Assembly (NCBI GenBank): GCA_903813345.2
Contig: CAIIXF020000008.1
Span: 23,730,822-23,794,821, forward strand
Direction: 5' to 3'
DNA: 64,000 nucleotides
Source: Owenia fusiformis
Lineage: Eukaryota; Annelida; Polychaeta; Sabellida; Oweniidae
In this document: piece by piece, positions 5,949-57,935 of the stretch
Layout of the letters: each line of letters begins with the position of its first letter
How positions within the stretch are numbered: position 1 is the stretch's first letter
Position numbers and translations under genes: made by a program
Notes under the pieces: model-generated
Told to the model about the DNA's origin: nothing
The model's input: only the letters and a program-made list of their open reading frames with translations
The model's database searches: none

Positions 5949-5954
5949 TTGTTT

Positions 5955-6072
5955 TTCTGGATACCCGGTTTTTTCGACCGGGTACCCGGTTTTCTCGACC
6001 GGGTACCGGGTACCAAGTTGGAACCCAGTATGGAGGATTTAGTACCCGGTACCCGGTACCCGGTTTTTTCTA
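5955..6072. repeat. GC-rich minisatellite of TACCCGG units
   Basis: Alternating TACCCGG / CCGGGTA words with TTTTTCGACC spacers, partly palindromic, forming an abrupt GC-rich island in AT-rich DNA. It directly abuts the 5' edge of the recognisable integrase-like sequence, so it probably marks the breakpoint of that fossil. Confidence 0.85.
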
Positions 6073-8150
6073 CAAACCCCGCAGAATTTGAAGAGTTTTT
6101 ACAAAGCAACGGAATCATTCACAAGTTTAGTGCCCCTTATCAACCATCCACAAATGGCCAAGCGGCACGATTCGTGCAGTCATTAAAACAAGCCTTAAGA
6201 GCAGCGCGTCATGATTCGGGTTCTACTCGCATTAAATGTGAACGATTCTTGCTCTCATATCGCAATGCTCCTCACACTGTAACTGGAGAAACTCCAGCTA
6301 TGCTTTTTATGAGACGACCGCTAAGAATGCGTTTGGATAATATCCGACCTAATTTCAATCAACTCATGAAAACGAAGTTGCATAAACAAATTGAGCATAG
6401 GGAAAACATTCAAAATCTAGGTCTCTGTGTGTCAATGATAAAGTGTGGGTAAGAAATTTCTTGAAAAATAACAAAGATAAATGGATACCAGGTGTAGTTG
6501 AACAAGTGATAGGTCCTCTGACATATAAAGTTGCTGTAGCTTCTGGGTTGTATTATAGACATATTGAGCAACTTAGATTGAGATTATCAGAGACTTCATT
6601 TGAACAACTGGATAACAACATTTTTGCTCATGAGAGTGAACCAGATGAAAAGGTTACTGATTTTGACAGGTTTCAAGAGAATCCATTTGTAGCTTCTGAT
6701 CTACCATGTTCTAAGCCTGTAGAGTTTAAATATGATGGGCAAACCCCAGTCAAGGAAAAACACAGTTCAGATAGTTCAATTCAAAAAGATCAGAGTGAAC
6801 AATAACCCAAATGCGAGTAGGTAGTTACCAGTTTCACCACCAGGTGGCTGATTCGGGTCAATTAACATGGCAGGTATATAAGAAAGTTCCCTTAAACTTT
6901 AATATTATCAATTTAAGTGGCTCAATTTTCATATAACCCTTATGTGTCTGATACTTATACTAATGAAAATATGTCCAGTAAAGCAAAATATTATCTGTCC
7001 ACTCAAAGAAAAGATATTTCATTTTTTGTGATTTTATAGCATGGGGTCTATGGGGAATCTCCCCGAGCTAGAAGTCACATTTTCAAAGAAAATTAATTTT
7101 TCAAAGTTGATAAACGATTTTTAAAACCACATTTCTAGATGTAATTTTACATGTAGATTTCAAATATGATATTACTTTGACTGAATTTTTAATTTTTAAT
7201 GACGTAAATCAAGATTATTTCTACTCGCATCTGGGTTATTGGAAACTCATGTTGATTTGAGTCCAAAACATACTAGTGTTCCAACAAATCAAACTGAACA
7301 GTTTGAATCTCCAGTGATAAGGAGAAGTAGTAGAGTGCATAGCAAACCTAAAAGGTTAATAGAGACTATATAAGGCTTATTGCCAAGATTGGAGACTTTT
7401 GAGTGTTATAACTATACATATAAGTTAAAAAGAAACATTGTTTATCACCAGTTGGGATGGTGCTAACTGTATTTCTTTCATCATGTTTTTCTCCAGTATG
7501 GATTCCAGTGTGTAATCCAGTATGTTGTTCTCCAGTATGTATTCTGTCAGGTAAAATGATTGACAGTATAGTTTTTGTAACAGAGTAACTTTTGACAGTA
7601 TGTATTCACAAGATATGCTCTAAATATTCTCTAGGGTATATTGATTACAAGTTTATCATAGAAAACATTATTTTCATCAGAATTGATCAGTATATAACAA
7701 GAATTGTCATGTTTAAGAGAAAACAACAACTTATGTTCAACTCATGTATGTATGAAGCAAAATGTTTATGCCAAAAAAGTATTATATAGGACTATTGGAG
7801 TTAAATAGCAGTTGTAGCTTAAAGGCCTTAAGCTAACATTGTTGGTAACTTCTTTTGATCCTTAAAGTGGTACTAAGATCAACAATCACAAGTTGTTTAC
7901 ATGTACTATATGAGATTTATTTTGCATTGTAATACATGTACAATTGGTTTAAAGATGCAGACCCACTTTGAAATTATAAGGGGAGAATTGTTGTATATTT
8001 GATTGATTTAAGTGATTGTTCCATTGTGTTTGCACAACCAATAATTGCTGTCAATAGGTGTCACTAGTATCAGCCTCGTCTTGAAATATAGATTGAATAC
8101 AGAATATGAAAGTTGTGTTCATTTCTTACTTTGGGATATTAATAGACATT
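6070..8150 (+). mobile_element. Fossil Ty3/gypsy-type LTR retrotransposon (integrase end and probable 3' LTR)
   Basis: What remains is the C-terminal half of an integrase (SAPYQPSTNGQA block, the YRNAPHTVTGETPAML block, then a chromo/SH3-like tail with VEQVIGPLTYKV), an Arg/Ser-rich extreme C-terminus near 7370, a purine tract (AAGGGGAGAA, about 7977-7987) and a probable 3' LTR beginning TGTTGTATATTTG at about 7989, with an uncertain end near 8150. Gag, protease, reverse transcriptase and the 5' LTR are absent, so it is broken, with a large 5' loss and a few further breaks. A 432-bp MITE is inserted in it. The readable coding sequence suggests moderate age. Family assignment rests on motif recognition; LTR borders are inference. 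Confidence 0.75.
6805..7236. mobile_element. 432-bp MITE with TA target duplication, inside the LTR fossil
   Basis: Terminal inverted repeats ACCCAAATGCGAGTAG (6805) and CTACTCGCATCTGGGT (ending 7236) are flanked by TA on both sides (6803-6804 and 7237-7238). The interior has no reading frame of interest. TA duplication and short TIRs fit a Tc1/mariner-type non-autonomous element. It is younger than the LTR fossil it interrupts. Confidence 0.85.
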
Positions 8151-12295: not shown

Positions 12296-13214
12296 GGTTT
12301 CTATTATAGGGTCTAAATCTACCACAAACTTCTGTTTTATCAAAAATCTACCTTAAAAACTCCCGTTTTTTTCAAAATCTACCGTAAAACCCAGTTTTTT
12401 TCATAACATACCGCAAAAATCCATTTTTTTCAAAAATCTACCGTAAACTCCAGTTTTTCAGAAATCTACCGTAAAAACTCCAGTTTTTGAAAACCTACTT
12501 TAAAAACTCCCGTTTTTATAGAACCTACCGCAAAAACTCCAGTTTTTTCAAAATCTACCGTAAAACCCAGTTTTTTTCATAGCATGCCGCAAAAATCCAG
12601 TTTTTTCAAAAATCTACCGAAAAAACTCCAGTTTTTCAGAAATATACCGTAAAAACTCCCGTTTTTGAAAATCTACTTAAAAACTCCCGGTTTTCAGAAC
12701 CCTACCGCAAAAACTCCCGTTTTTCAAAACTCTACCGCAAGAACTCCAATTTTTTAGTATACCTCCAAAATTCCCGTTTTTCCGAAATCTACCGTAAAAA
12801 CTACAGTTTTTTCAAATATCTACAGTAAAAACTCAAGTTTTTTACAATCTACGTCGAAAACTACCTTTTTAAAAAAAATCTACTGTAAAAGTCCTTTTTA
12901 AAAAAATCTCCCGCAAAAACTCCCGTTTTTCCAAATCTACCGCGAGCACTACCATTTTTTAAAAAATCTGCCGTAGAAACTACCGTTTTTTTAAAATCTA
13001 CCGTAAAAACTACCGTTCTTTGAATCGTTTTTCAAAATCTCCCGTTTTTTCAAAATCTACAGCGAAAACTAGTTTTTTTTTCAAAAATCTCCGTTAGAAC
13101 TCCCGTCTTTTTAAAAATACTCCCGCAAAAAGCACCGGATTTTGGAAAACCTCCAGTAAAAGAACCGCAATTTTCAAAATATCTCCCGCAAATTTTTCAT
13201 TTAAGGTTGGCAGG
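12296..13214. repeat. CTACCGTAAAAACTCC-type minisatellite with GGTTGGCAGGT end
   Basis: About 30 imperfect units of roughly 30 bp (AAATCTACCGTAAAAACTCC + AGTTTTTTC). The right edge, AAGGTTGGCAGGTCTGG, matches the terminal word of the element at 16423-17405, whose left part is the same minisatellite on the other strand. This array is therefore probably a related element that has lost its other end. Confidence 0.85.
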
Positions 13215-16422: not shown

Positions 16423-17405
16423 CATACCTGCCAACCTAAGACCAAAAATTTGCGGTAGTTTTTTTGAATTGCGGTATTTTTGCGGTCGATTTTTTCAAAA
16501 TGCGGTAGTTTTTGCGATATTTTTCGACAAAATGAGGTAGTTTTACGGTAGATTTTTAAATGGATTATTGAAAAAATGGTACCTTTTCGGAAGTTTTTGA
16601 AAAATACGGTAGTTTTACGGTAGATTTTGAAAAAATGCGGTTGTTTTGCGGTAGATTTTTGAAAAAACCAGTTTTGTCGGAGATTTTGTAAAATGCGGTA
16701 GTTTTCCAGTAGATTTTAAAAAATGCGGTAGTTTTTGCGGTAGATTTTCTGAAAAAACGATAGTTTTGCGGAAGATTTTGAAAAAATGCGGTAGTTTTTG
16801 CGGTAGATTTTTGAAAAAAACTGTCGTTTTGCGGTAGATACTGAAAAATGCGGTAGTTTTACGGTAGATTTAAAAAAATTGCGGTAGTCTTTGCGGAGGA
16901 TTTTGAAAAAATGTGGTAGTTTTGCGGTAGATTTAAAAAAACTGATTCTGCATAGATTTTGACACACTTCAATGAATAAATAATAAAGTATGTTTTTCTA
17001 ACACAGCATTCATGGAACTCTTTCATAAACAGATTAACAATTTGAATACTTCAGTGTTTTTATAACTACAGTAGAACCTGTAGCAGTTGAACACTGTGTT
17101 TTTACATCATGATACTCCCCAGTGTGTTGACTGATTGCACGCTAGCCTACTTAGTTACTAAGTAAGCAATATCCACTGTCACAGACGTGCCGACACCTAT
17201 TTATTTTCGGGTTGGTAATGGAATATTACAAGGGCAATATGAGATCTGGGAAGACTTCAATTTTTCAGAATTTCCAAATAATAACGGTAGATTTTACTGT
17301 AGTTTGAACAAGAATACTGTTAATTACGGTAGTTTGTCATTTTTTACGGAAAAACAAAAATTTTACGGTAGATTCCCGTAAAAAACGGATAGGTTGGCAG
17401 GTATG
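16423..17405. mobile_element. Minisatellite-bearing DNA element, TIR CATACCTGCCAACCTA
   Basis: Terminal inverted repeats CATACCTGCCAACCTA (16423) and TAGGTTGGCAGGTATG (ending 17405). From the left TIR inward, about 500 bp consists of 25-35-bp units of GCGGTAGATTTTTGAAAAAA. From the right TIR inward, similar ACGGTAGATT words recur more sparsely (17280-17385). The middle (about 16960-17280) is unrelated AT-rich sequence. A 983-bp non-autonomous element; superfamily not recognised and no target duplication visible. Confidence 0.75.
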
Positions 17406-17995
17406 ATCCCTGACTACACCGATGTCATGGTAATTTTCAATCATATATTTATTATAATAAAATACGTGAATAATTCCTCTTCTATCAATATATTTATTAG
17501 AACTCTTGAGTTTGAAACCTTATGCAACATGAAGTGCGGTAGTGATCATGAGGAAACACAAGTGACTTTGTTTAAGGAAAATAAAAAAATTAAATTGTAC
17601 TTTAATTATGAAGGACTGTCAAAGTTAAACAACTTTATCTGTTTAAAATTTGTATCATGTTAACACATTTTTAAATTAAATATGAAACCGCATTGATGGC
17701 AAATTGAAAGCTATACGTTTGAAAGATATAATCTACCATTTGTGTCGTTCATTAACCCCAAAACACTAAGGTAAAAATAGTCACACGAAGGGGGGGGGGG
17801 GGCACCCCCTAGTAACCCCCTTGTAAATTGTTTATTATATAGTAGAGTTAGAATGTTCATGTAATAGCTTTAACAACTATAATAATGCAAGATAGCGTAA
17901 TTTTATTCTAAAGATAACACATATGGTAGAAATACTGTAGTTGTAGCTTTTTCTGATTTTGTCTATTGGAGCTGATGATAACATCATGATAAATC
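17406..17995. other. No gene recognised
   Basis: AT-rich, with a poly-G run near 17788. The 89-codon frame at 17394-17663 shows no domain. Confidence 0.5.
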
Positions 17996-19116
17996 AATTC
18001 TATTGGACATTTCAAACAAAAATGCAAGTAATAAGACGTTTGTTAAGGTTGATGCTAATGACACTTATAAATCTAGATTTATTGCTGGTTCTAGGGTTAG
18101 TTCTACTAAAAAGGTTTCTTGGCTATTGACTAGATGTCTCCAAGCTGTTAAAAATAATAGGGAGTCTTACTGTAATGCCATTTTTAGAAATTCTGGGATT
18201 AACCTTATGTGGATCCTTAAAAATTCGAAGGACCTTTTATCTAAATTTGATCAACCAAATTATTCGAAAGTTAAATGTAATTCCACATTGGATTTTTCCA
18301 CACGTTACACATCAATTCCTCATAACAAACTGAAAAAGGAAATATTTGGTATCATTAAAAACACAATGAAAGGAAGTAGATTTAAATTTGTAAATTGTAA
18401 TTCAAATAGGGCTTTCTTTTCCAGTGATCAATATGAAAAGTATATTTCTTTTACTGCAGTACAACTTTGTGAGGTTTCAGACTTTTTGATTGATAACATT
18501 TATGTAAAGTTTGGAACGTCAAAATATAAGAATACCAATGGGGACAGATTGTGCTCCTCTTGTGGCAGACCTTTTTCTATTATCGTATGAATATAAATTT
18601 TGCAAAAGATGATGAAAGATAAGACAAAATTCCACATAGCTAAACTTTTTATTAAAACAGATAGGTATATAGATGACCTGTTGAGTTTGGACAACCCTGG
18701 ATTTGAAGATTTTGTAAATGAGATATACCCTTCCGAGTTGAGTTAAAAAGATCAATGGATCGAACATGAATGCGCTTTATCTTGACCTTCTCATTAACAT
18801 TGAACAAGACAACAGTATATATTGTAAATTGTATGATAAACGAGACGATTTCAACGTTGATATTGTGAATTTTCCCCATTTAGACAGTTGTATTCCATTA
18901 AACCCAGCATATGGGGTCTATGTATCCCTGCTTATTAGATATGGCAGGGCATGCTCTAAATATTTAGATTTTAAGTCAAGACACAATACTTTAGTGATCA
19001 GTCTGTTAGGTCAAGCTTAAGAAATACTTTCTGAGCTTTGCAAAAAATACAAATCATTAATTTCGAAGTTTCAAGTTTTACCACTTAAGATGCTGAAGGA
19101 TGTAGGAATTGTTTAA
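17996..19116 (+). mobile_element. Penelope-like reverse transcriptase remnant
   Basis: A readable reverse transcriptase in consecutive blocks: KSRFIAGS near the start, a palm-entry block (NSGINLMWILKNS, LDFSTRYTSIPHNKL), GTDCAPLVADLFLLSYE, the catalytic RYIDDLL block, and a thumb-side block (LYDKRDDFNVDIVNFPHL, NPAYGVYVSLLIRY, ACSKYLDF). This order and wording match the Penelope-like or closely related reverse transcriptases common in marine invertebrates (recalled knowledge). The frame is interrupted a few times, so it is a dead copy. No GIY-YIG endonuclease or terminal repeats were found; flanking sequence is AT-rich. Confidence 0.75.
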
Positions 19117-30761: not shown

Positions 30762-30822
30762 CCAACCAAATCTGTAAAGTTTAACTGTCCCATGTTAAAG
30801 TCACCTGTAAAACCAACCTCAG
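30762..30822 (+). CDS. PLB1: Phospholipase B1-like, exon (Cys-Pro linker)
   Basis: A 61-nt exon with a textbook acceptor (TTTGTTTGTTTTGCAG|CC) and donor (CCTCAG|GTAATG). It reads PTKSVKFNCPMLKSPVKPTS plus one base (G). Joined in phase to the exon at 28501 it gives ...KLSSEM-PTKSVKF. The FxCPxLxSPxKPTSVH string is a signature immediately upstream of each PLB1 lipase repeat (recalled from vertebrate PLB1). The leftover G is completed by TG at the start of either 280-nt exon to make Val. Confidence 0.82.
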
Positions 30823-38199: not shown

Positions 38200-41050
38200 T
38201 GAGTTTATGTTGAATTTATATGTTGAATTTAGCCTACTTTACTGGTACATTTGATCAATTTAACAATAACAACTGTGATGTCATAACTGTAGAAATTATT
38301 GTAGAGGGTGGAAAGAATATTCTAATAACTAGCATCTACAAGCCTCCTAATGTCAACATTGAAGAATTCAACAATGACCTCGATATTTATTTGTCCCTCA
38401 TTTCAAAAGAAAACAACAAAGTACATTATATTGCTGGAGATTTCAACATCGACCTTTTTAAATCTTTTGAACATGACCTTACAGAAAATTTCTATAATAC
38501 AATTACTGCTTACAATCTCTTACCTGTCATTTATAAAGCTACCAGAGTAACATCCACATCTGCTACCTCAATAGATAATATTTTCACTAATGACCCTAAA
38601 ATTGACTTGTGTGGAATAATTTATAATGATATTTCAGATCATTTCCCAATTTTTGCTACTTCTAATAAGCCTATCAACAAAACTAAATTTATAAAAAGAT
38701 CAATAAGAAAATATACAGTGGAAAATATATCAAAGTTCAAAGAACTCCTCTCACATGACACTTGGGATGATATTACTAATGTCACTAATGCAAATGATTC
38801 TTATAATAAGTTTGAAGATAAGGTGTCAAACTTCTACAATGAATGTTTCCCTTTAAAACAAGTCACAATCAAATTATATGATAATAATACGAAGCCATGG
38901 TTAACATCAGCAATACTTAAATCAATTAGAAATAAAAGCAAACTTTACAAAAAATACCTTCGAAATCCCAACGATCAAAATAAAAAGCAATATAAATCCT
39001 TTGCAAATCAGCTAAAAACCACAATAAAAATTTCACAAAAGCAGTATTACAATAACAAATTCGAACATAAGAAGGGAAATATAAAGGCAAACTGGCAAAT
39101 AATTAATCAGATACTTCAGAAGAAAAATAAAAATAATAATATTTCAGATTCTTTTATTCATAATAATGTTGAATTAACTGATAAACAAGAAATAGCTAAT
39201 CAATTTAATAATTTTTTCGTAAAAGTGGGTGAAAAACTAGCAAGTAAAATACCAAAATCAAATAGAAATTCTTTGGACTTTATGCAATCAATAGGAAGAC
39301 AAGCTCAAACTCTTTTGTTAGATAACGTTGAACCAAATGAATTGAATAAAATAATTACCAACTTAAAACCCTCTGCAGCAGGACATGATGATTTCAAACC
39401 TTTTATCATTAAAGATTGTGGATTGTTATTTCACCATCCTCTTTTACATATCTTTAATCTCTCTCTTAAAAGCGGAATTTTCCCGGATCGGCTTAAAATA
39501 GCAAAAGTTATTCCTATATACAAAAAAGATGATGCACATTTTTTCACTAATTATCGCCCAATCTCAGTTTTACCCGTGTTTTCCAAGATCCTGGAAAAAA
39601 TAATGCATCATAGAATTTCTACATTCATAGACTCTATCGATATTTTGTACATTAACCAATTTGGATTTAGGGAAAAAAGATCAACTTCAATGGCTGTTCT
39701 AACTTTTATTGAAAAGATTAGAAAAGCGATTGATGATGGGGAATTTACCATTGGATTGTTTCTTGATTTTTCCAAGACCTTCGATACAATTGATCACAAC
39801 ATCCTATTTAGTAAACTTGAATTTTATGGCATTCGTGGTGTTGCGCTCAATTGGATCAAAAGCTATTTTACACACAGAATTCAGAAAACATTTTACAACA
39901 ATACCTTATCTGAGCCTGAATTTATCACGTGTGGAATCCCTCAAGGTTCAATTCTTGGACCACTTTTCTTTATTCTGTACATAAATGACATTTACCTTTC
40001 TTCTCCACGATTGTTTTTTGTTTTATTCGCGGATGATACCAATTTATTGATAAAGGGTAAAAATCTAACTGAACTTGCTGATATTCTCAATACTGAACTA
40101 AAACTAATAGAGGAGTGGCTTATCACTAATAAATTATCCCTTGATGCGGATAAAACAAAATATATTATTTTCACCTCAAGTCAAAAAAGATATAATGCAA
40201 ATAACATAAACATCTATCTTCAGAAAAAGAAGCTTCAGCAGGTTGATAGCATTAATTTTCTTGGCATTACAATTGATCAAAACTTAAACCGGAAACGTCA
40301 TATTATGTCCGTTAATGCTAAAATCTCCAGAACCATTGGTATTCTATATAGGGTCAAACAACTGTTAAATGATAAAGCATTCTTGAGCATCTATTATTCC
40401 CTTATTTACTCTTATCTGATATATGGCAATCTTATCTGGGGTGAAGCAGGTAGTGGTTTGTTAAACTCCCTTCATATTTTGCAGAAAAAATTTACACGTA
40501 TAGCAACAAACAGTAACTACAGAGCACATTTACTTCCCCTATTCAAACAACTGAACATTTTGAATATATTTGATATTAATAAGCAGTTGAAATGCATTTT
40601 CATGTACAAATGGATTAATAAACTCCATAATTATCATAAAAATTTTCCAAACCTCTTCAGTACCATCCAAGAGAGACAACACCCGAAATAGGGTAAACTA
40701 TGACAAACCCAAAATTCGAACAAATTATGGTAAACCTTTGATATCTTTTACTGCACCATCAATTTGGAATTCATTACCTATTGAAATAACATCATCTGGA
40801 AGTATTTTTATTATGAAAAAAGAATTGAAAAAATATTTTATCAATCAATAATATCAATTTCAGATAACCATAGTGGGCATTATATGACACATTCTTAGTC
40901 AGACATAGATAGTAGCATTCATCACACAAGCAGATCCCCAATCTGTACATTTCATGATTATAAACACGGGAATATACACGAGAAGTGTCACCCGTTTACT
41001 GTACATTTGATGTTGAAATATATATAAATAAAAAAAATCAAAAAAAAATC
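38200..41050 (+). mobile_element. LINE (Jockey/CR1-like group), 5' truncated, nearly intact ORF2
   Basis: Covers the ORF2 described at 38220, a short 3' UTR and an A-rich tail ending AATCAAAAAAAAATC at 41050. The 5' border is near 38200, where coding similarity to the endonuclease begins abruptly inside the MITE. The upstream part of the endonuclease and any ORF1 are missing, so this copy arrived truncated. Confidence 0.8.
38220..40691 (+). CDS. LINE ORF2: endonuclease and reverse transcriptase (823 codons, frameshifted near its end)
   Basis: Encodes the C-terminal part of an APE-type endonuclease (SIYKPPN near residue 40, AGDFNIDL near 70, SDHFPIF near 140), then a reverse transcriptase: IPIYKKDD...NYRPIS (about 430), NQFGFREKRST, motif A FLDFSKTFDTIDH (about 513), GIPQGSILGPLFF (about 571) and catalytic FADD (about 602), followed by a thumb region. 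The protein would prime reverse transcription at nicked target DNA. The first Met is arbitrary because the 5' end is truncated. A frame change near 40675 gives an early stop at 40691. The +1-shifted frame carries the natural tail (NTRNRVNYDKP ... SIWNSLPIEI) to TAA at about 40851. Otherwise there are no stops over 2.4 kb, so this is the youngest LINE here. Confidence 0.9.
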   Translation: MLNLAYFTGTFDQFNNNNCDVITVEIIVEGGKNILITSIYKPPNVNIEEFNNDLDIYLSLISKENNKVHYIAGDFNIDLFKSFEHDLTENFYNTITAYNLLPVIYKATRVTSTSATSIDNIFTNDPKIDLCGIIYNDISDHFPIFATSNKPINKTKFIKRSIRKYTVENISKFKELLSHDTWDDITNVTNANDSYNKFEDKVSNFYNECFPLKQVTIKLYDNNTKPWLTSAILKSIRNKSKLYKKYLRNPNDQNKKQYKSFANQLKTTIKISQKQYYNNKFEHKKGNIKANWQIINQILQKKNKNNNISDSFIHNNVELTDKQEIANQFNNFFVKVGEKLASKIPKSNRNSLDFMQSIGRQAQTLLLDNVEPNELNKIITNLKPSAAGHDDFKPFIIKDCGLLFHHPLLHIFNLSLKSGIFPDRLKIAKVIPIYKKDDAHFFTNYRPISVLPVFSKILEKIMHHRISTFIDSIDILYINQFGFREKRSTSMAVLTFIEKIRKAIDDGEFTIGLFLDFSKTFDTIDHNILFSKLEFYGIRGVALNWIKSYFTHRIQKTFYNNTLSEPEFITCGIPQGSILGPLFFILYINDIYLSSPRLFFVLFADDTNLLIKGKNLTELADILNTELKLIEEWLITNKLSLDADKTKYIIFTSSQKRYNANNINIYLQKKKLQQVDSINFLGITIDQNLNRKRHIMSVNAKISRTIGILYRVKQLLNDKAFLSIYYSLIYSYLIYGNLIWGEAGSGLLNSLHILQKKFTRIATNSNYRAHLLPLFKQLNILNIFDINKQLKCIFMYKWINKLHNYHKNFPNLFSTIQERQHPK

Positions 41051-44766: not shown

Positions 44767-45980
44767 AACCCCACATCCATGTTTTTAACGTTCATAAATC
44801 ACGCCTAACCATCAACAAGGTACAGCGACAAAATATACCGTAGTACACTTAGATGTACGATGTCACGATTTAACCGATTTGAAGCAAAGACAATGATGCA
44901 GATGTGATATAAGTTTTAAAAAATTAATCTTGGGAATACTTGAAAGATTTCATGTTTAATTTCGTGTGTATTCGTTTAGGAAGACATTTTACTTTCTAAT
45001 AACGTTAAAAGATTTCTAATAACGTTGCTCGATTTTTTTCGTAGTCAATCTACCCACGAAAATTGATCGGTTGGAAGATGTTGGGGTTTTCACATTTCCT
45101 TTGATCATTTTTCCCCTGTTGCCTAAGAGTGTCGATCAGAGGGGGATTAAGACCAGAGCTCAAAGATGACATACGCTTATAATGTAAACCTGTATTGAGA
45201 TGACATACACCTCTGATTGGTCCAAATCGATAAACAAAAATGGTGGATTCAATATTTTTTAATAACGCTTCGAATAATATTATGTTGATTCCTGGCGTAT
45301 TTACCAATATCATATCATACTAGCTTATTGAATATGACTTAAAATCTCGTTTATGATATATCTGGAAATATTTAAGAGTTCAATCAAATTGAAGTAATTC
45401 TGTAATTGTTTTGTTTCAATTTTAAATGCATCTGACCTTCTGTCTGTTAGTGTTATGAAAAATACGTTGTCTGTATAAGGGTTAACTGTGAATTGAGTAA
45501 GTTCAATGGGACAACGTACATTCGAGTTGACAACATACACTTAAGATTTTTGAAATTATAGCCAAAATGCTAATACTTATTAAATCTTCAACAGACCTTA
45601 ATTGTAGTGTTTAAAGAAACATATTCTCATAAAAATCGTCGACACTCTTAGACGACAGGGGAGGAAATAATCAAAGGAAATGTGAAAAAACATAACATTT
45701 TCCAACCGACCAATTATATGGGTAAAAAAATCGAGCACTGTTCGAAAATCTTTTAACGTTATTAGAAAGTTAAATGTCTTCCTAAACGAATACACAAAAA
45801 AATCAAACATGAAATCCTAAAAGCATTCCTCAGATTATTTTTTTAAAACCTACATCATTGTCCTTGCTTCAGATAGGTTAAATAATGACATCGTACATCA
45901 AAAGTGGACTACGGTATATTCTGTCACTGTACCTTGTCGATGGTTAGGCGTGTAAATAACAGAGATATAACCATGGGTGC
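44767..45980. mobile_element. 1.2-kb foldback element with about 350-bp arms
   Basis: Arms about 44767-45140 and 45636-45980 are complementary with interruptions: CACGCCTAACCATCAACAAG on the outside, TTCGTTTAGGAAGACATTTT in the middle, TTCACATTTCCTTTGATCAT and GTCTAAGAGTGTCGA inside. The 495-bp centre has short open frames on the - strand (45325-45540) without a recognisable domain. Non-autonomous; superfamily not recognised. Confidence 0.85.
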
Positions 45981-46403
45981 GCTTCTTATACAGTGTTTTT
46001 TTTTTGGGGGGGGGGTGTGGTGTAGTTTTAAATAAAGATGTTATTTTAGGAGTCATACAATTTTTTTTAAAGGAACATGTACAGGCCCGTAGAAAGGATT
46101 TGCCAAGGGGGTTCACTTTTTGAAAAATTCCAGGAGGTTCACTTTTTTTGACAATTTTGGCCCAAATATGGCCATAATTACTTAAAAAGTGCTCAGAATG
46201 ATGAGATACTGCATGATTTTGAAAGAATTTGTGGCCAGTGGTGCGATGGCACCCCCATGGCAATAAAAATAAAGCCACGAGAAAGAAGAAAAGAGTTTTA
46301 AACGTAAGTGTTTAATGAGACTTAACAGTCGCCTTGACTAAAACCAATAGTCTCGCGCAGGCGTGGATGAGGGAGGGTAGAGTGAATAAGGGGTTGTAAT
46401 AAA
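45981..46403. other. No gene recognised (intron)
   Basis: Poly-T/poly-G run near 45995-46015 and a degraded dispersed repeat (GTGGTGCGATGGCACCCCC, 46230). The 126-codon - strand frame at 45898-46278 overlaps the foldback arm and these low-complexity runs, and is not called. Confidence 0.5.
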
Positions 46404-48646
46404 AATCGACGTCTCTCAAGTTCAGTACAATCTTTTATAATGTAAAGTAAAGTTTCACTCTCTCCTCATAGATGACATATTCTATTTTCTCCAGCTTCCA
46501 ATTGCTTCCCCCACCAGAACCCGTAACATAAACTTACATGTAAAAATAAGATCATGCCATAGTTTATACCAAATTATTGGAAATTGATTCTTGACGACAT
46601 CTCCGTACATGCTTTTATATTAAGATGCAATAAATTTATAAATATAAATTATGATTGGAAACAGCATTTTGAAATTTTTTCCAATGACGCCTTTTGGGAA
46701 AAATACTTTGATCAACATAGCTCTTCATTAAATCTCAGAGATTGAACCTTGTACCTTGAAGTGTTATCTTCAAAATCAAAGTTTAATGTGCATGTTTAAA
46801 GGATTTTGGCCATATCCTGTATAATTATATATAGGTCATGTACATGTAACAACTTTGACCATGGTTATTTTCTCCCATATATTCAACATATTGTCCCATT
46901 ATTTCCACATTGTTATAACTCACTTTTTAGAGGATTTGAGATTAGTATAAGATCTTCCTCAATTTTTCATGAGGAATTCATTTCTTGGGTCCGTTTCGAT
47001 GGATCTAATCTCCTTTTGGAGATATCCAGTGCCACATGGTTAGAAGTACAAAATGAGGAATTTTGTAAGTCCACCTAGTCATATTCGTTTGTGTAGGCAG
47101 CAGAGCCAATCAGATACATAATTTTGATCATGTGACTAATAGTTATAACAATAAATGTGGAAATAAAGATTTCTTACTAGTATACTTTGTATACTCAACA
47201 AAGGAAATTATAAATCATGACACCATACATGTACAAACAAAAGAAAGCAGATTTGACATTATTTGTAACAAAAACAAGTTCATTCAGTGAACTTAATCAA
47301 TTACTGACTTGTTATTCCTTTTGACATTGTCATTTACCTTTTTAAGATCTGGTGGATTTATCCAAAATATTTACAATTTTTCGAAATTAAATTGTGTTGT
47401 TATGGCAACCACTTGACCAATTATGATCAAACTTGTCATAGCAACTAATTATATACAAGGGGCGATCAATATATTCTGATAAAAATGCTCTCATTTTGTG
47501 ATTTTTTCACATATCCCTTTCATTTTTTCAGAACATGTAGATTATGTAATTACACATACGATGCTAAAATATTTTAGCTATATCTGAAAATAATTATGAA
47601 ATAAGGTTGCCATGGTAACCTGTATTTAGGGTAGGCAGGTCAGTTAAATAATAACGTCTAAAATAGATAAATATGTTAATTTAATCATTCCTCGGTACCT
47701 ATTTGAAGCAGATCTTCCAGTCATTGCCAACTATCATTGATGTGTTCCATACCCCTGTTGCCCTTGTTTGCTAATTTATACAGTGGGATAGCTATCTTTT
47801 CATAAGTAACATCTCAATTTATGGTAGTGTTATTCTCTGTCCGCAAGCTCCTCTTGCAACCAGATTGTGGATGATCTTCAACAGTGACCATGCCTTCCTC
47901 TTTACGATACTACCTATAGATTCTTTATGCAGATATAACACCTTGCCCATGCACTTAATGAGTCCAGGTATGTCTCTGACAATGTCCTCTTACTCATTCT
48001 TGAAAGAAAATCAAATCTAATGGTATTCCCTAATGTATCCATTAATGTCACACTCTGCATCAGCCACATTAACTTCATCTGACAATTTTATTTTTGGTGT
48101 GTCTCATAACATGTAATGTCAATTGGCCCATTCTGTCCTACAATGGTTTTGTGATTATTTGTGATGTTATAGTGAGCACATATACAACATTTGTTTAGCA
48201 ACAAACAATGAGTAACAATACCAAACCTTTTTAGAAAAAATGCATGATTTCTGCATGCTTTAAAATAATTAAAATAACAAGTTATTATGATATTTATATG
48301 TTATAATTTAATTGACCTGCCTACCCTTAATACAGGTTACCATGGCAACCTTATCTCAATGATAATTTAAGATATAGCTATAATATTTTAGCATTGTATG
48401 TGTAATTACATAATCTACATTTTCTGAAAAAATAAGAGGGATATGTGAAAAAATCACAAAATGAGAGCATTTTTATCAGAATATATGGATCGCCCCTTGT
48501 ATAGATACATAATCCTTAGAAATATGAGTGTGATTGATCGTATTGATGATTATCATAGTACCCCTCATAAGAGTAGCCAGTGGGTATAGAGGGAATAATT
48601 CGCATATGCTGAAAACTAGACCTATTATTTTCAAAATCAATGAGGA
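46404..48646 (+). repeat. Tandem duplication, copy 1 (1.2-kb unit plus mariner insert)
   Basis: The unit runs from ATCGACGTCTCTCAAGTTC to TTTTCAAAATCAATGAGGA and is followed without spacer by copy 2. Excluding the insert at 47456-48499 it is about 1.2 kb. It contains two short coding-looking stretches, FIPNYWKLILDDISVHAF (about 46563) and a 90-codon frame with FRGFEISIRSSSIFHEEF (46806-47078). They might be decayed exons or a retrogene, but they match nothing I recognise. Confidence 0.9.
47456..48499. mobile_element. Mariner-type element, 1044 bp, about 200-bp TIRs
   Basis: Ends CAAGGGGCGATCAATATATT / complement, flanked by TA (47454-47455 and 48500-48501). Inverted ends extend about 200 bp (to CCTGTATTTAGGGTAGGCAG and its partner). 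The matching site in copy 2 (about 50233) is empty (AATTATATATAGATAC), which defines the insertion exactly. No transposase frame in the middle. Confidence 0.9.
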
Positions 48647-50387
48647 ATCGACGTCTCTCAAGTTCAGTACAATCTTTTATAATCACTGGTGATCCACTCG
48701 ATTACGCTGGTTACCAAAACGGTTCGTTTTGGTAACAAAATGTCGGAACATCCGGAAGGTACGATTTTCTCGTTTCCTTATTTTACACGTTGTAGGCAGA
48801 ATTCCCATGACATTTTTTAACACAAACGTGTATCAGTATCATATGTTTAAGAAATTGTACATATTTGCGACCAAATAGTTCAGAAGACAACAGAATCGTC
48901 GATTTACTTCCTCACTTAAGTTACATAAACGGTTTGGGTTAAAAGTGCAGATCTTAACTGATTTTCGAAAAACCGTTTATGTAACTTAAGTGAGGAAGTA
49001 AATCGACGATTCTGTTGTCCTCTGAGCTATTTTTTCGCAAACATGTACATTTTCCAAAACATATGATACTGCTGCACGTTGTGAGAAAAAACGTCATGGG
49101 GATTCTGCCTACAACGCGTGAAATAAGGAAAAAAGAAAAATAGTGCCTTCGACGTTCCGACATTTTGTTACCAAAACGGTTCGTTTTGGTTACCAGCGTA
49201 ATCGAGTGGATCACCAGTGATAATGTAAAGTAAAGTTTCACTCTCTCCTCATAGATGACATATTCTATTTTCTCCAGCTTCCAATTGCTTCCCCCACCAG
49301 AACCCGTAACATAAACTTACATGTAAAAATAAGATCATGCCATAGTTTATACCAAATTATTGGAAATTGATTCTTGACGACATCTCCGTACATGCTTTTA
49401 TATTAAGATGCAATCAATTTATATATATATATTATGATTGGAAACAGCATTTTGAAAATTTTTCCAATGACGCCTTTTGGGAAAAATACTTTGATCAACA
49501 TAGCTCTTCATTAAATCTCAGAGATTGAACCTTGTACCTTGAAGTGTTATCTTCAAAATCAAAGTTTAATGTGCATGTTTAAAGGATTTTGGCCATATCC
49601 TGTATAATTATATATAGGTCATGTACATGTAACAACTTTGATCATGGTTATTTTCTCCCATATATTCAACATATCGTCCCATTATTTCCACATTGTTATA
49701 ACTCACTTTTTAGAGGATTTGAGATAAGTATAAGATCTTCCTCAATTTTTCATGAGGAATTCATTTCTTGGGTCCGTTTCGATGGATCTAATTTCCTTTT
49801 GGAGATATCCAGTGCCACATGGTTAGAAGTACAAAATCAGGACTTTTTTAAGTCCACCTAGTCATATTCGTTTTTGTAGGCAGCAGAGCCAATGAGATAC
49901 ATAATTTTGATCATGTGACTAATAGTTATAACAATAAATGTGGAAATAAAGATTTCTTACTAGTATACTTTGTATACTCAACAAAGGAAATTATAAATCA
50001 TGACACCATACATGTACAAACAAAAGAAAGCAGATTTGACATTATTTGTAACAAAAACAAGTTCATTCAGTGAACTTAATCAATTACTGACTTGTTATAC
50101 CTTTTGACATTGTCATTTACCTTTTTAAGATCTGGTGGATTTATCCAAAATATTTACAATTTTTCGAAATTAAATTGTGTTGTTATGGCAACCACTTGAC
50201 CAATTATGATCAAACTTGTCATAGCAACTAATTATATATAGATACATAATCCCTAGAAATATGAGTGTGATTGATCGTATTGATGATTATCATAGTACCC
50301 CTCATAAGAGTAGCCAGTGGGTATAAAGCGAATAATTCGCATATGCTGAAAAACTAGACCTATTATTTTCAAAATCAATGAGGAATG
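48647..50387 (+). repeat. Tandem duplication, copy 2 (1.2-kb unit plus different insert)
   Basis: Same unit as copy 1, nearly identical, carrying the 536-bp insert at 48684-49219 instead of the mariner-type element. The 90-codon frame recurs at 49589-49861 with only a few residue changes. The likeness shows that the duplication is fairly recent. Confidence 0.9.
48684..49219. mobile_element. 536-bp palindromic element with ATAAT target duplication
   Basis: Ends CACTGGTGATCCACTCGATT / AATCGAGTGGATCACCAGTG with ATAAT on both sides (48679-48683 and 49220-49224). The empty site in copy 1 (TTTATAATGTAAAG, about 46435) confirms a 5-bp duplication. The arms continue almost to the centre (TTACTTCCTCACTTAAG / complement near 48905-49000), so it is virtually one long hairpin. 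A 5-bp duplication and a CAC start would suit a Transib-type element, but that is a guess. Confidence 0.88.
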
Positions 50388-51125
50388 ATATACTACACAT
50401 AATTAACTTATTATGAAAAATGCAACACTGTAAGCAAAAACATTGTCAAAGCTCATCCAGCCCCTTATCAGTCAAAATGGAACACGAGTCACATTCTGTC
50501 TAATTAGATAGGCAGAATTATGCTAATAACAAAATGAAAGGGAATGAAAATTCAGTTTTCAGGGTTATTTTGATATTTCAAGAACAAGAAACCATAAAAA
50601 ATATGTGTTTTCTTTCTTGTTAATCAGAGATTTTTGCTCTGCAAGGCCTACATATACACATGATTACCTCTAACGGAAAAATAGGTTTTTAAAAATTACT
50701 ACTCAAAAGTTATGAAGACCTAAACTTCAACCTCTGATTTCTCAATATCAGCTAAAATGAAATTGTAATAATGTGGAAATAATGGGATGATATTTCAACA
50801 CAATAATACAATTTCCTCCAACTGAGGTTCCCAGAATAATAAAATTTATCAATATACTCTTCGAAAACCATGGAATAGGACCCTACCTTAACACATTTTT
50901 CGAAATATCTAACTTATTTTCCAAAAATGACTCACTTTTTTTCTCATTTTTATAGGTCATACAAGATAGGGCCTAAACTAAATCTTGAATATTTAATGAC
51001 GAAAACCAAGATAATTTCTACTTGTATCTGGTCTATTTTGCTTTGCTTAGTCAGCCTTCATACTTGCCAGTCAAAATACGCTGTTATATTAACCGCATAA
51101 AATGTTTGCTTATTTTGCTAAACAG
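50388..51125. other. End of the large PLB1-like intron, no repeat recognised
   Basis: AT-rich sequence leading to the acceptor TTTTGCTAAACAG at 51125. Nothing else identified. Confidence 0.5.
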
Positions 51126-51405
51126 TGCATAGTTTAAGGCCAGGAGATATAGACATAGTTGCTGCAATGGGGGACTCCATTACTGCAGGGACAGGCATCT
51201 CTGCCAAAACCTTACCTGAAATGCTCATACAATACAGAGGACAGTCTTTTAGTATAGGGGGAGATGAGGACATACACAAGGTCTCCACATTACCCAATAT
51301 CTTAAAGTATTACAACCAAAAACTCTTGGGGTATTCCCAGGGAGATGGCACGGTGGACAGCTATAATGCACATCTAAATTTAGCTGTGCCAGGAAACGAA
51401 GCACA
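51126..51405 (+). CDS. PLB1: Phospholipase B1-like GDSL domain, alternative exon a
   Basis: A 280-nt exon between GCTAAACAG|TG and CA|GTAAGA. It starts with two bases completing Val, then HSLRPGDIDIVAAMGDSITA and GTGISAKTLPEMLIQYRG, SFSIGGDEDIHKVSTLPNIL, and ends NAHLNLAVPGNEA plus two bases. GDSI carries the nucleophilic Ser of block I of GDSL lipases; the RG..FSIGGD and NAHLN.AVPG strings are the conserved first third of a PLB1 repeat (family knowledge). The exon accepts the phase-1 exon at 30762. It ends in phase 2 and so cannot continue into exon b, which needs phase 1. Blocks with the catalytic Asp and His must be further downstream. Confidence 0.88.
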
Positions 51406-51482
51406 GTAAGAAATTTATATAAAAGTAACTACAGCCCTGCAGTTAAAGTTATTAAGGAATACTTAAACAATCTTGGTTTCAG
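51406..51482 (+). other. 77-nt intron between the two alternative exons
   Basis: GTAAGAAATTTAT ... CTTGGTTTCAG. A plausible branch sequence, ACTTAAAC (about 51461-51468), lies only about 55-60 nt from the donor. Splicing exon a to exon b would be very tight and would shift the frame, so in mature messages this segment is probably removed only as part of a longer intron. Confidence 0.7.
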
Positions 51483-51762
51483 TGCATAGTTTGATGCCAG
51501 GTGACATTGATGTGGTGGCAGCATTGGGGGATTCAATAACAGCAGGAACGGGGGTAACTGCTCAAACAGTATTAGGGTTAGCCATAGAAAACAGGGGTCT
51601 GGTGTTTAGTATAGGAGGTGATAGTGACATAGATGAGGTCTCTACCCTCGCAAATGTGCTAAAGTGGTACAATCCTAAGCTCGTTGGTTACGCGTTAGGA
51701 AATGGTGGGGTTGACAGTCCCAATGCCCATCTTGATGTGGCTGTTCCCGGAGCTAAAGCAGT
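51483..51762 (+). CDS. PLB1: Phospholipase B1-like GDSL domain, alternative exon b
   Basis: Exactly 280 nt like exon a, between GGTTTCAG|TG and GT|GTAAGG. It reads HSLMPGDIDVVAALGDSITA, GTGVTAQTV, RG-VFSIGGDSDIDEVSTLAN and NAHLDVAVPGAKA. About two thirds of residues match exon a, with the block I GDSI and all glycines of GGD and VPG kept, so both copies look selected for. The VPGAKA ending is closer to vertebrate PLB1 repeats than that of exon a. Same entry and exit phases as exon a, so either can fill the slot but not both. The next exon was not found before the window ends. Confidence 0.88.
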
Positions 51763-51991
51763 GTAAGGAAACATCATAATGCAAACCCTGCTGTTTACCC
51801 TTTTTGTCAGTCCAGATAGCCCCTGATGTTAGTTAGTTGTAAAACATGATGTCTTGGACAGTTGTACTAGCTTAAATACAAAAAACGCGAAAGGAAAATC
51901 ACTATATCTTGGAAAAATACTAATTCAATAATGTTCATTTTTTCAGGATAAGAAAGAAGAGACTGTGTATGTATAGCTCCTGTTGTCTGTA
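51763..51991. other. Intron sequence after exon b
   Basis: Begins GTAAGG. Nothing but AT-rich sequence and one copy of the AACATGATGTCTTGGACA word that recurs in the following foldback element. Confidence 0.5.
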
Positions 51992-52476
51992 AGTTGTATA
52001 ACATGATGCCTTGGACACCTGCTCAAAAGTTTTATTAGGAAAATATGAAAACGCAGTCAGAGGTGACTGCAACAGCAATAAAACCAAATAACTTTCTTAC
52101 CATAGTGTTTTGGCACTTCAAATTTGGCACAGATTATCCTCATTCAATGTGTGTTACATTTGTGGAGTTTCATCAAAATCACTACAGGGACTTTACAGTC
52201 ATGGTCAAAATGCCTTCTTAAGTCTGCCTGAACCAGGGTGTTTGACTGCGATTTGAAAGCATTTCGACCATGACTGTAAAGTCCCTGAAGTGATTTTGAT
52301 TTCACTCTTCAGATTTACCATACAGTAAATGAAGATGATTTGTGTCAAATCTTAAAAGCCAAAACACTATGGTTAGGAAGTTATTTAGTTTTTGCGGTTG
52401 GAGTCCCCCTGACTGCGTTTTTCCTAGTACAACTGTCTTTTGAGCAGGTGTCAAAGGCATCATGTTTTACAACGAG
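51992..52476. repeat. Foldback element of about 485 bp
   Basis: Arms about 51992-52205 and 52260-52476 are complementary: AACATGATGCCTTGGACACC on the outside, CATAGTGTTTTGGCAC in the middle, GGGACTTTACAGTCATGGTC at the centre, with a loop of about 55 bp. Scattered mismatches; no coding sequence. Confidence 0.85.
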
Positions 52477-53746
52477 TGTATAATCCTTACTTGGTTTGTT
52501 TATCTCGTGGTATGAGGAAAGTAGTTCTCTTAGAAACCTGTTTGGGGACTTCAATGGTATACTACAGCACCATCTTTGGATAGAATACTCTCATTCGCGG
52601 GCATATAATGCCCAGAATAACTGGGAAACATGTGATCATAACAGTGAACGGTAAAATATTTGGGATTATTTTCCGCGGATGGATGACCTTGGTAGTGGTG
52701 AATTGGTCAATGTTCACAACTATGATGACGTTTTGGTACTCATATTTTGTAAGAGAGCAGAACTTTTGATTTTCGTGGGACATTTTCGTTGAAACTTTTT
52801 TGACATGGAGGTGAGATGCTTCGCTGTATTTCTCTGAAATTCTTTGAAGATAGATGGGCTGCGATTTGAACCTTGTCAATTTAACATGCATCCCAATGGT
52901 ACAAAAACTAAGGAGAGTTCTACCAACTTACCATTTGCAGGAGTTATACATACACAGTCTCTACCAACTAACCATTTGCAGGAGCTATACATACTCAGTT
53001 TCTTCTTTATTTCCTGAAAATATGAACATAATTGAATCAGTATTTTTCAAGATATAGCGATTTCTTTGGATTGCATTTTTTGACACCCTGTATGCACCAC
53101 ATCGTGCTGCCCTTGTTCTCGCTTTTAACAATGCTCTCTTCAGGAAATATGTTTGCGAACCCGATGCATGCTTTAGCAAAAAGTATCTGAGTAGAAATGG
53201 AATAGCCATGTTGACTGAATCAATATTCATATTACATATATACCTACATATTTCCAAGACGTCTTAAGAAAACAGGTCTAAATTCAATTATATTTCGTCA
53301 GACATCTTGAAAATGCTGATGTAAACTCAACATGATTTTTCTAAAACGTTTTAGCCAAGACGTCTTAGAATAGGCAACTGAGAATAGTTACGGACGTCCT
53401 CCTATACCCACAGCATGCTTGTCTCAGTTAAACCTTCATTAAACATCTTACATCCTTAATGTGCTATAAACAAGCCTAAACGTAACACACTGATACCTTT
53501 GCAAGATTGGTCCTCTTCATCTCAACACACATATTCCCAATATCATCAAATAACACATTGCACTTGTAAAATGATTATATGTGCATGTTGAATCACATTT
53601 ATTTCTTTTAGATTTAGAGGCATAGGCTTCTTTTGTGGCATAAAATATAGGAACATTTATGCAGAACATGCACTTGTCCATTGTACAAATGATATTCACA
53701 TACATTTCACTTGGAAAATACTTAAGTGGGTAAAGTTAACTGCATG
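52477..53746. other. No gene recognised
   Basis: A 36-bp tandem pair (CTACCAACTTACCATTTGCAGG... at about 52919-52990) is the only repeat seen. The 109-codon frame on the - strand (52562-52891) lacks splice or domain support. This should be PLB1-like intron if the gene continues downstream. Confidence 0.5.
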
Positions 53747-53839: not shown

Positions 53840-55925
53840 GATTCAAAACTTCTACTTGAATGCCAATTTGAAACCTAATATGAATCCCAATATGGTTACT
53901 TATATAAAAATAGCAAAGGATGTTTATTCCGCTTCATCAAATGTTTGAATCCTACTAATCCTGATATGAATCCTTATATGGTTCTTTGTATCATTCTAGC
54001 GAAGAAAGACGATTTTTCTGCTGCAAATGTGGTCGAATGTCAATACCAATACAAATTATGAGCTCAAATTAGGATTCGCAAACTTTGTTTGAATTCTAAT
54101 ACGAATCCTGATATGAATCCTAATATGGTTTTTTGTATCATTCTAGCGTAGAAAGACGATTTTTTTCTGCAGCAAATGTGGTCGAATGTCAATACCAATA
54201 CAAATTATGAGCTCATATTATGATTCGCAAACTATGTTCGAATCCTACGAATCCTAATATTAATCCTAATATGGCTGTTTGCATCATTCTAGCGAAGAAA
54301 GACGATTTTCCTGCAGGAAATGTGGTCGAATGTCAATACCAATACAAATTATGAGCTCATATTATGATTCGCAAACTATGTTCGAATCCTACGAATCCTA
54401 ATATTAATCCTAATATGGCTGTTTGCATCATTCTAGCGAAGAAAGACGATTTTCCTGCAGGAAATGTGGTCGAATGTCAATACCAATACAAATTATCTGA
54501 GCTCATATTAGGATTCGCAAACTACGTTCGAATCCTGATATGAATCCTAATACGAATCCTAATATGGTTGTTTGCATCATTCTAGCGAAGAAAGACGATT
54601 TTTCTGCAGCAAATGTGGTCGAATGTCAATACCAATACAAATTATGAGCTCAAATTAGGATTCGCAAACTCCGTTTGAATCCTACGAATCCTGATATGAA
54701 TCCTAATATTGTTGTTTGTATCATTCTAGCGAAGAAAGACGATTTTTCTGCAGCAAGTGTGGTCGAATGTCAATACCAATACAAATTATGTGCTAAAATT
54801 AGGATTCGCAAACTATATTTGAATCCTACGAATCCTGATATTAATTCTAATATGGTTCTTTGTATCATTCTAGCGAAGAAAGACGATTTTTCTGCAGCAA
54901 ATGTGGTCGAATGTCAATACCAATACAAAGTATGTGCTAAAATTAGGATTCGCAAACTTTGTTTGAATCCTACGAATCCTTATATGAATCCTAATATGGT
55001 TTATATCATTCTGGTGAAGAAAGATGATTTTTCTGCAGCAAATGTGGTCAAATGTCAATACCAATACAAATCATCTGAGCTCATATTAGGATTCGCAAAC
55101 TACGTTCGAATCCTGATATGAATCCTAATACGAATCCCAATATGGTTGTTTGCATCATTCTAGCGAAGAAAGACGATTTTTCTGTAGCAAATGTGGGCGA
55201 ATGTCAATTCCAATACAAATTATATGCTAAAATTAGGATTCGCAAACTATGTTTGAATCCTACGAATCCTGATATGAATCCTAATATTGTTGTTTGCATC
55301 ATTCTAGCGACGAAAGACGATTTTTATGCAGCGAATGTGGTCGAATGTCAATACCAATACAAATATTAGCTCATGTTAGGATTCGCAAACTTTGTTTGAA
55401 TCCTACGAATTCCTATATGAATCTTAATATGGTTTATATCATTCTGGTGAAGAAAGACGATTTTCCGTAGCTTAAATGTGGTCAAATGTCAATACCAATA
55501 CAAATATGAGCTCAAATTAGGATTCGCCAACGCTATTTGAATACCAATTTGAATCTCAATATGAATCCGAATATAGCGATGAAAGACAATTTTTCTGCAT
55601 CAAATGTGTTCGAATCTCAATACCAATACAAATATGATCTCATGTTAGGATTTGCCAACTCTGTTTTTGAATCCCAATACATGTATGAATGCAAATATGG
55701 TTATTTGTGTCATGATAGCCAAGGATGTTGTTTTTTCTTTATCAAGTGTGTTCGAATCTCAATACCAATACAAATATGATCTCATGTTAGGATTTGCCAA
55801 CTCTGTTTTTGAATCCTAATACATGTATGAATGCAAATATGGTTATTTGTGTCATGATAGCTAAGGATGTTGTTTTTTCTTTATCAAGTGTGTTCGAATC
55901 TCAATACCAATACAAATATGAGCCA
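53840..55925 (+). repeat. Satellite array, about 14 units with 144-bp modal period
   Basis: Unit: GAATCCTAATATGG, CATCATTCTAGCGAAG, AAAGACGATTTTTCTGCAGC, AAATGTGGTCGAATG, CAATACCAATACAAAT, TTAGGATTCGCAAAC. Starts of GAAGAAAGAC fall at 54001, 54148, 54294, 54438, 54587, 54731, 54875, 55016, 55165, 55309 and 55449, then become more diverged. The most frequent spacing is 144 bp, a multiple of three, so reading frames cross several units (54675-55121). Edge units are more diverged than central ones, as expected for a decaying array. Confidence 0.95.
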
Positions 55926-56345: not shown

Positions 56346-56398
56346 ATCGATTTACTCTTATCTTAATAAGATAATATATCAAAACACAAAACAAATTA

Positions 56399-57935
56399 GT
56401 GAAACAGTTAATAGAAGATGCTAAACTAGATTATGAAAGAAAATTAATGAATAAGATTGATAATGTTTCTAGAAATTCCGTTGATTATTGGGCACTTATA
56501 AAGGAACTTCTTGGGAAAAATCAAGTGTCTACAATACCAGTACTAAGAAATCCCTCTCTAAATACGTCAGCCTGCACCAGTTACGAAAAAGCCAATGCTC
56601 TCATGAAATACTTTGTTGGAAAAAACATAATTCAGATAGATGATGATTACACGCCTCCTTTCCCACTTAGAACAAGAAACAAAATGCAAAATTTTAGAAC
56701 CACCTCTGAAGTATTTGACCTTTTATGTGACCTTGACACAACTAAATCTCATGGGCCTGATGAAATTGATAATAAAATGTTGAAACTATGTGCCAAATCT
56801 CTTGCTTTACCAACCAGTAAACTATTCAATAGGATTTTAGAAGAGAATACTTTCCCTGATATATGGAAACAAGGCATTATTGTTCCTATTTATAAAAAAG
56901 GTGACAGGGAACTTGTTAACAACTATAGACCAGTGACACTCTTGAGCAGCCTCTCGAAAGTTCTTGAAACCATCATTCATAAACACCTTTTGGCCTATCT
57001 GCTACAAAACAACCTATTATACAAATTTCAAAGCGGTTTTCTCCCTAAGCACAGTACTGTTAACCAGCTAATCAACATTATTCATAATATCCATGAAAAT
57101 ATTGACAACAACAAATATGTACGCTCGGCTTTCTTAGATTTAACAGCCGCCTTCGATTTAGTACCACATAGACTACTTATACAGAAACTCGAAGGCTATG
57201 GTTGTAACTTTAATTTTATACGGTTAATGAAATCATACTTAAAAGACAGAAGGGTTCGAGCCAAAGTCAACAATAGCTTATCTGATTGGTCCTCAGAAAA
57301 TCATGTAAATCTCAATGGTACAAATGTTAACAATGATAACAACGATCTTAATTTAAATAACTTGAAAATCAATGCTGGAGTACCACAAGGATCAGTCCTC
57401 GGGCCCCTCCTTTTTCTAATATACATCAATGACTTACCAGATGATCTCTTATCAAAAACATTTATTTTTGCCGACGACACGTCTATTTACAGTGCACATG
57501 ACAGTTTTGATCAGATTTTAAACATTCATCAACCACTGCAAAGAGATCTTGACACTTTGGCAAACTGGGCTAGTACTTGGAAGATGACCTTTAAGGCACA
57601 AAAAAGTGCCGACTTAACTTTTGTTTCAGGAAACAGAAGGCTATTACAAGAGCCAGCCCCTTTAAAACTAGGAGCAGATGTGATACGTAGTTGTACCAAA
57701 CACAAGCACTTGGGCTTAGTGCTTGATCAAAATCTAAATTTTAATTCACATGTTGACCAACTCATAGAGAGAGTAAACTCTCTCATGAGACCTCTGAAAA
57801 ATTATCTAAACTGCTTAATAGCAAGTACTTAGAGAATATATATAATTCATTTATACTACCCCATTTTGACTACTGTGACACAATATATGATAAGGCTTCA
57901 ACTGCAAAACTCTTAACATTGGATAGACTTCATTA
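56399..57935 (+). CDS. LINE ORF2 reverse transcriptase (5' truncated; interrupted by element at 57936)
   Basis: A 477-codon frame (to 57832) with a complete reverse transcriptase core: IVPIYKKGDRELVNNYRPVT (about residue 165), FLPKHSTVNQL, motif A AFLDLTAAFDLVPH (about 244), GVPQGSVLGPLLFLIYINDL (about 326), catalytic FADDTSIY (about 356) and HKHLGLVLDQNLNF in the thumb. The endonuclease is missing; the first Met is arbitrary. An Asn-rich insert (NLNGTNVNNDNNDLNLNN, about residues 302-322) lies just before the GVPQG motif and is unusual. One frame change near 57800 is followed by KLSKLLNSKYLENIYNSFIL and DYCDTIYDKA. The sequence then breaks at 57935, where a 3.7-kb element is inserted, and resumes at 61621. 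Confidence 0.88.

Follow-up and report, generated by a model that had tools for sequence, protein, structure and literature searches.

Tandem 280-nucleotide exons of a PLB1-type lipase gene in Owenia fusiformis are candidates for mutually exclusive splicing

The subject of this analysis is a 64,000-nucleotide (nt) stretch of the genome of the annelid Owenia fusiformis (GenBank assembly GCA_903813345.2, contig CAIIXF020000008.1, positions 23,730,822 to 23,794,821 of the forward strand), referred to here as the window, and in particular two neighboring exons within it, A and B (Table 1). Their sequences suggest, with a probability of about 0.8, that A and B arose by tandem duplication and serve as mutually exclusive internal exons in a gene for a PLB1-type GDSL lipase. 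The best reading is that the exclusion would be enforced at least by the reading frame. An initial annotation had recognized the signature of mutually exclusive splicing in this pair, a proposal that finds support in the homology of the two exons, their equal lengths and phases, their splice borders, their incompatibility in frame, the indications of purifying selection and the gap of only 77 nt between them.

Both exons are exactly 280 nt long and lie between AG and GT borders. In each, an entering TG completes a codon begun in the upstream exon, 92 codons follow, and two bases are left at the exit. These properties and the presence of GDSI in both copies are as first described, and the claimed protein identity of about two thirds corresponds to 60 of 92 residues (65%), leaving 32 that differ; at the nucleotide level 184 of 280 positions are identical (66%). 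The stretches GDSITAGTG, FSIGGD and AVPG are kept in both. With one copy as the query, tblastn recovers the other (E = 2e-37); no third copy is found within the window using A and B (next best E = 1.8). The DNA match spans 51123-51413 and 51480-51770, thus including both splice borders. The intron flanks beyond these borders look unrelated (18 of 60 identical bases upstream, 20 of 60 downstream), and the duplication is therefore old. An assembly or haplotype duplication is ruled out as the source of the pair by the 66% nucleotide identity. Tandem gene duplication is likewise ruled out, since 77 nt are too few to hold a gene's other exons, so that A and B do not represent one exon in two neighboring gene copies. 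The pair combines the compatibility of length, phase and splice sites with the homology that is expected of mutually exclusive homologous exons.

Table 1. Predicted features of the candidate lipase gene (positions are those of the window)
Feature	Position	Strand	Length (nt)	Content	Splice context
Upstream exon U	30762-30822	+	61	PTKSVKFNCPMLKSPVKPTS + G; exits with one base	Preceded by a pyrimidine tract and CAG, followed by GTAATG
Exon A	51126-51405	+	280	Carries the nucleophile motif GDSI of a PLB1-type GDSL lipase	AG/GT borders
Intron between A and B	51406-51482	+	77		GTAAGA ... TTTCAG
Exon B	51483-51762	+	280	Putative alternative copy of exon A, GDSI kept	AG/GT borders

The reading frame argues for exclusivity. 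An upstream exon ending in PTS plus G had been proposed, and it is present as sequence 20,303 bases before exon A. This exon, U, presumably corresponds to the PLB1 'CP...PTSVH' linker, which it resembles. A search of both strands of the window for F.CP...PTS ending in G|GT, a motif picked after exon U had been seen, gives one occurrence, and 40 shuffles give none. Joined to A or to B, exon U gives an open frame that reads PTSVHS across the junction, which we take to be the PLB1 entry motif. When U, A and B are joined in series, the frame ends at a stop three codons in, with the junction codon counted (...NEAHA-stop). The earlier statement that both exons together break the frame while either one fits exon U is therefore correct, and joint inclusion of A and B is non-productive. 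Such frame-based loss of joint products is common in mutually exclusive clusters, though not required: in human, the length is no multiple of three for 377 of 629 clusters, and 83 of these 377 have joining reads (PMC5740500).

The differences between A and B suggest that both have been conserved as coding sequence. Over the 92 codons, they fall 29, 13 and 52 times on the first, second and third codon positions; 25 codons are identical, 35 carry synonymous changes only and 32 change the residue. The LWL85 method returns a nonsynonymous divergence (dN) of 0.275, a synonymous divergence (dS) of 1.55 and a dN/dS of 0.178. Maximum likelihood gives 0.225, 5.9 and 0.038, respectively, and NG86 returns no dS. 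As dS is saturated, only the direction of the ratio is used. In simulations of neutral drift, no more than 3 of 2000 runs retain an open frame with at least 60 matching residues at 0.3 or more substitutions per site, against 6% (from A) or 12% (from B) at 0.2. The drifting copy was compared with its own start, the other copy was held fixed and no indels were allowed, all of which is lenient to neutrality. Further comparison was made with three repeats of human PLB1 in provisional sequence (hereafter, the human repeats). A and B group together against these with a bootstrap of 99 (scale of 100, 200 replicates), on branches of nearly equal length (0.29 and 0.32). Among the 43 columns that are invariant in the human repeats, A keeps 32 and B keeps 32. 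At the 32 columns where the copies differ, the human repeats match A only in 10, B only in 10, both in 4 and neither in 8. These results support long purifying selection on both copies, the simulation rejecting long neutrality of either. Homology, equal length, phases, borders, frame incompatibility and purifying selection are the features that have been used to predict mutually exclusive exons, and on the fly X chromosome they are shared by 90 of 16,180 exons that lack mutually exclusive splicing (PMC3228551).

Assignment to the PLB1 type rests on similarity to the human repeats and not on the Pfam cut-off. Against the Lipase_GDSL profile, exon A scores 22.1 bits (E = 1.8e-4) and exon B 13.8 bits (E = 0.064), both under the curated cut-off of 23.6; each is a fragment that matches approximately the first 53 of the 208 profile positions, or about the first quarter. 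Identity to the three human repeats is 45 to 54% for A and 45 to 51% for B, and tblastn with these repeats detects the two exons at E values of 4e-17 to 1e-28. Both exons contain VHxLxPxDI followed by GDS[IL], the block I serine motif, a combination that we take to be the mark of the PLB1 family. Patterns for block III (Asn) and block V (Asp/His) have no match in the window on either strand, nor does tblastn with the human repeats recognize other PLB1 exons there (best other match E = 0.67); both blocks may be located past the end of the window. A search of the sequences of solved structures returned 10 entries up to E = 10, the best of which (E = 0.7) is unrelated; two GDSL-type enzymes at E = 1.1 and 1.7 are not usable. 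AlphaFold, run on the two-row alignment of A and B, gave a mean predicted local distance difference test score of 34.3, with 92 of 92 residues under 50. Among viral contigs, query P0001 gave 53 pattern matches and the A/B alignment 304, and among prokaryotic genome contigs the alignment gave 310; none was confirmed. The collections searched for relatives being viral and prokaryotic, these results are uninformative on animals.

In the mechanism that we propose, A and B would each encode one and the same segment of the enzyme, from the VHxLxPxDI entry motif through GDSI to AVPG. The spliceosome would attach either A or B to U and then, presumably, join the chosen copy to a common exon past the end of the window. 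Provided that the next exon matches the phase common to A and B, skipping of both should cause a frameshift. Only mRNAs with a single choice would be productive, because double inclusion hits a stop and double skipping is predicted to shift the frame; the others would probably be cleared by nonsense-mediated decay. It is conceivable that the 77-nt intron sterically hinders splicing of A to B. The outcome would be two lipases that have the rest of the protein in common and differ in 32 of 92 residues of the exchanged segment.

The choice itself could be regulated at the splice sites. The stretch ahead of the acceptor has a pyrimidine fraction of 0.82 in U, 0.65 in A and 0.59 in B, and the U1 pairing energies of the donors are -9.4, -4.5 and -5.8 kcal/mol, respectively. 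Regulated exons often have weak splice sites, and the weaker donors and poorer pyrimidine tracts of A and B relative to U may leave room for such control. Incompatibility between U2 and U12 introns was rejected as the exclusion mechanism upon inspection of the donors (GTAATG, GTAAGA and GTAAGG). The 77-nt intron contains seven weak branch-point-like adenines, located 66, 55, 37, 32, 28, 18 and 17 nt before B, which puts them 11 to 60 nt from A's donor. Of the other AGs, the one closest to B is 28 nt before it, and the adenines 59 and 60 nt downstream of the donor, which alone have no intervening AG, are the best placed. In human, 57 of 629 clusters have been attributed to steric proximity (PMC5740500), and for OGDH a threshold of about 50 nt between branch point and donor has been discussed (PMC7969005). 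Scans with Rfam (gathering threshold) and for tRNAs gave no matches.

Several of the observations weigh against exclusive splicing of A and B in a working gene. The best-placed branch-point candidates exceed the proposed steric threshold, so steric exclusion would be possible only if an adenine farther from B is used. The donors of A and B are weak, with 13.8% and 6.0% of the 3253 GTs in the window pairing as well with U1. RNA pairing, evaluated for five region pairs within 800 nt, did not stand out in any of them: with the first partner of each pair shuffled, energies were as low in 32, 16, 30, 10 and 52 of 60 controls. Over the 12,238 bases from B to the end of the window, no downstream PLB1 exon was recognized, and the gene is thus only putatively intact. 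A short, diverged exon could escape the pattern and tblastn searches. The next exon presumably lies beyond these 12,238 bases, and as an intron of more than 20 kb is already present between U and A, it may well be located past the end of the window. Finally, 26 of 65 predicted internal exons in the fly survey then had a mutually exclusive annotation (PMC3228551), and many neighboring, highly similar human exons are not spliced exclusively (PMC5740500).

Other explanations of the pair have to be considered. A and B might be the nucleophile exons of two successive PLB1 lipase repeats that were brought together by loss of the sequence between them, with splicing still exclusive. Human PLB1, a gene of 58 exons, does have three GDSL-like domains (PMC3919745), and the A-B identity of 65% equals that of human repeats 2 and 3 (61 of 94 residues, 65%). 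We nevertheless consider this origin unlikely, given that A and B cluster with each other against all three human repeats; the introns are too diverged to reveal breakpoints. It is also rather improbable that a single copy is in use and that the other is a duplicate which has recently lost its role or is spliced in at a negligible rate. The lower Lipase_GDSL score of B (13.8 vs 22.1 bits) and the weakness of both donors point in this direction, and a recent loss is compatible with the simulations because 6 to 12% of runs pass when drift does not exceed about 0.2 substitutions per site. Yet each copy preserves an open frame over exactly 280 nt, the branches are near equal, invariant columns are retained to the same extent by the two copies, and long neutrality is rejected.

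Two further alternatives appear very unlikely. The pair could act as an output switch: the enzyme would come from one exon, and joint inclusion or joint skipping would be used deliberately to route the mRNA to decay. The early stop upon double inclusion would suit such a device, as would the joining reads reported for frame-incompatible human clusters (PMC5740500), but a switch alone leaves unexplained why both copies hold a complete, equally conserved catalytic segment. We give equally little credence to a gene fragment or pseudogene, that is, to A and B lying outside any working gene with the rest of the lipase gone. The unmatched block III and V patterns, the lack of any other recognized PLB1 exon in the window and the transposon-type sequences on both sides of the exons would agree with decay of the locus; two intact 280-nt exons under constraint, and the long intron already found here, argue otherwise.

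Mutually exclusive exons in a single working gene would place A and B among known systems. Homologous mutually exclusive exons, or tandem duplicated exon substitutions, are like A and B adjacent, equal in length and phase, frame-incompatible when joined and conserved in both copies, with the difference that our pair is predicted from sequence (PMC9741552, PMC5740500). OGDH exons 4a and 4b also belong to an enzyme, are separated by a size-restricted intron and have a summed length that is not a multiple of three; their branch points are mapped at 25 to 41 nt from the donor, whereas those of the O. fusiformis intron are motif guesses at 11 to 60 nt (PMC7969005). In the oyster alternative oxidase, a tandem duplication of exon 10 likewise affects an invertebrate enzyme and keeps its functional sites, the copies being 63.5 and 65.9% similar in two species (PMC5589949). 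The oyster exons are terminal, carry stop codons and are selected through an alternative 3' splice site, while A and B are exclusive by frame and presumably internal (PMC5589949). The oyster pair is the nearest invertebrate enzyme case that we found. In CYP4F3, the choice between exons 3 and 4 alters the substrate preference of a lipid-metabolizing enzyme by an exon swap. That enzyme is from another protein family, and for the lipase a substrate effect is putative.

How the two forms might differ in function is less certain than their exclusivity. It had been claimed that they diverge around the nucleophile and the substrate pocket, specifically in KTLPEMLIQY versus QTVLGLAIEN. The divergence itself stands, at 32 of 92 residues; a permutation test detects no significant clustering close to the serine (P = 0.06 to 0.17 for five interval sizes), and the named stretch varies among the human repeats too. 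We infer a change of the substrate pocket only tentatively, because the differences are weakly clustered and this stretch is variable elsewhere. The A and B forms may nonetheless use different substrates. It is possible, though doubtful, that one lipase gene swaps its catalytic-serine segment to yield two enzymes with different lipid preferences, according to tissue or diet; vertebrate PLB1 would then represent the other solution, that of multiple repeats.

The best-known examples of mutually exclusive exons come from channels, muscle and adhesion proteins. A literature search, outside of which lay subscription papers and genome annotations, found no earlier report of them in PLB1, which fits the initial annotation's unawareness of any. 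An annotated but unpublished pair may exist, given this scope. By title, none of the matches listed concerns a lipase exon pair of this kind; the co-mention of phospholipase B1 and exon duplication is in a review on sequencing in autoimmune disease. If the proposal is true, the exchanged nucleophile segment of a digestive-type lipase would provide a natural two-state test of the role of that segment in substrate choice, and PLB1 genes would have a second route to diversification besides the repetition of whole domains.

The intron between U and A contains an 825-codon frame with endonuclease and reverse transcriptase matches (38214-40688, plus strand; Pfam PF14529 and PF00078), corresponding to a non-LTR (long terminal repeat) retrotransposon, and a second reverse transcriptase frame of 485 codons is located downstream of B (56375-57829, plus strand; PF00078). 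A frame at 5928-6449 (plus strand) has a sub-threshold integrase core match (PF13683, 23.0 bits vs 26.5) and is perhaps the remnant of an LTR element. Three more frames, at 17982-18587 (plus), 45901-46311 (minus) and 52565-52927 (minus), have no family match in the Pfam scan. Two 1-kb direct copies that are 98.6% identical (46437-47455 and 49220-50238) are likely a recent transposon pair, the second of which ends 888 bases before exon A. On the other side, 231 bases after exon B, begins a palindrome-like stretch (51993-52473) that is 77% identical to its own reverse complement. It is surrounded by a separate inverted pair (51896-51982 and 52979-53063), and the whole is probably a foldback element. 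A minisatellite, its unit about 144 bases long, occupies 53941-55923. Two arrays of about 30-base units (12315-13116 and 16449-16941) lie about 3.3 kb apart, and their units resemble, by eye, mutual reverse complements (CTACCGTAAAAACT vs GCGGTAGTTTT).
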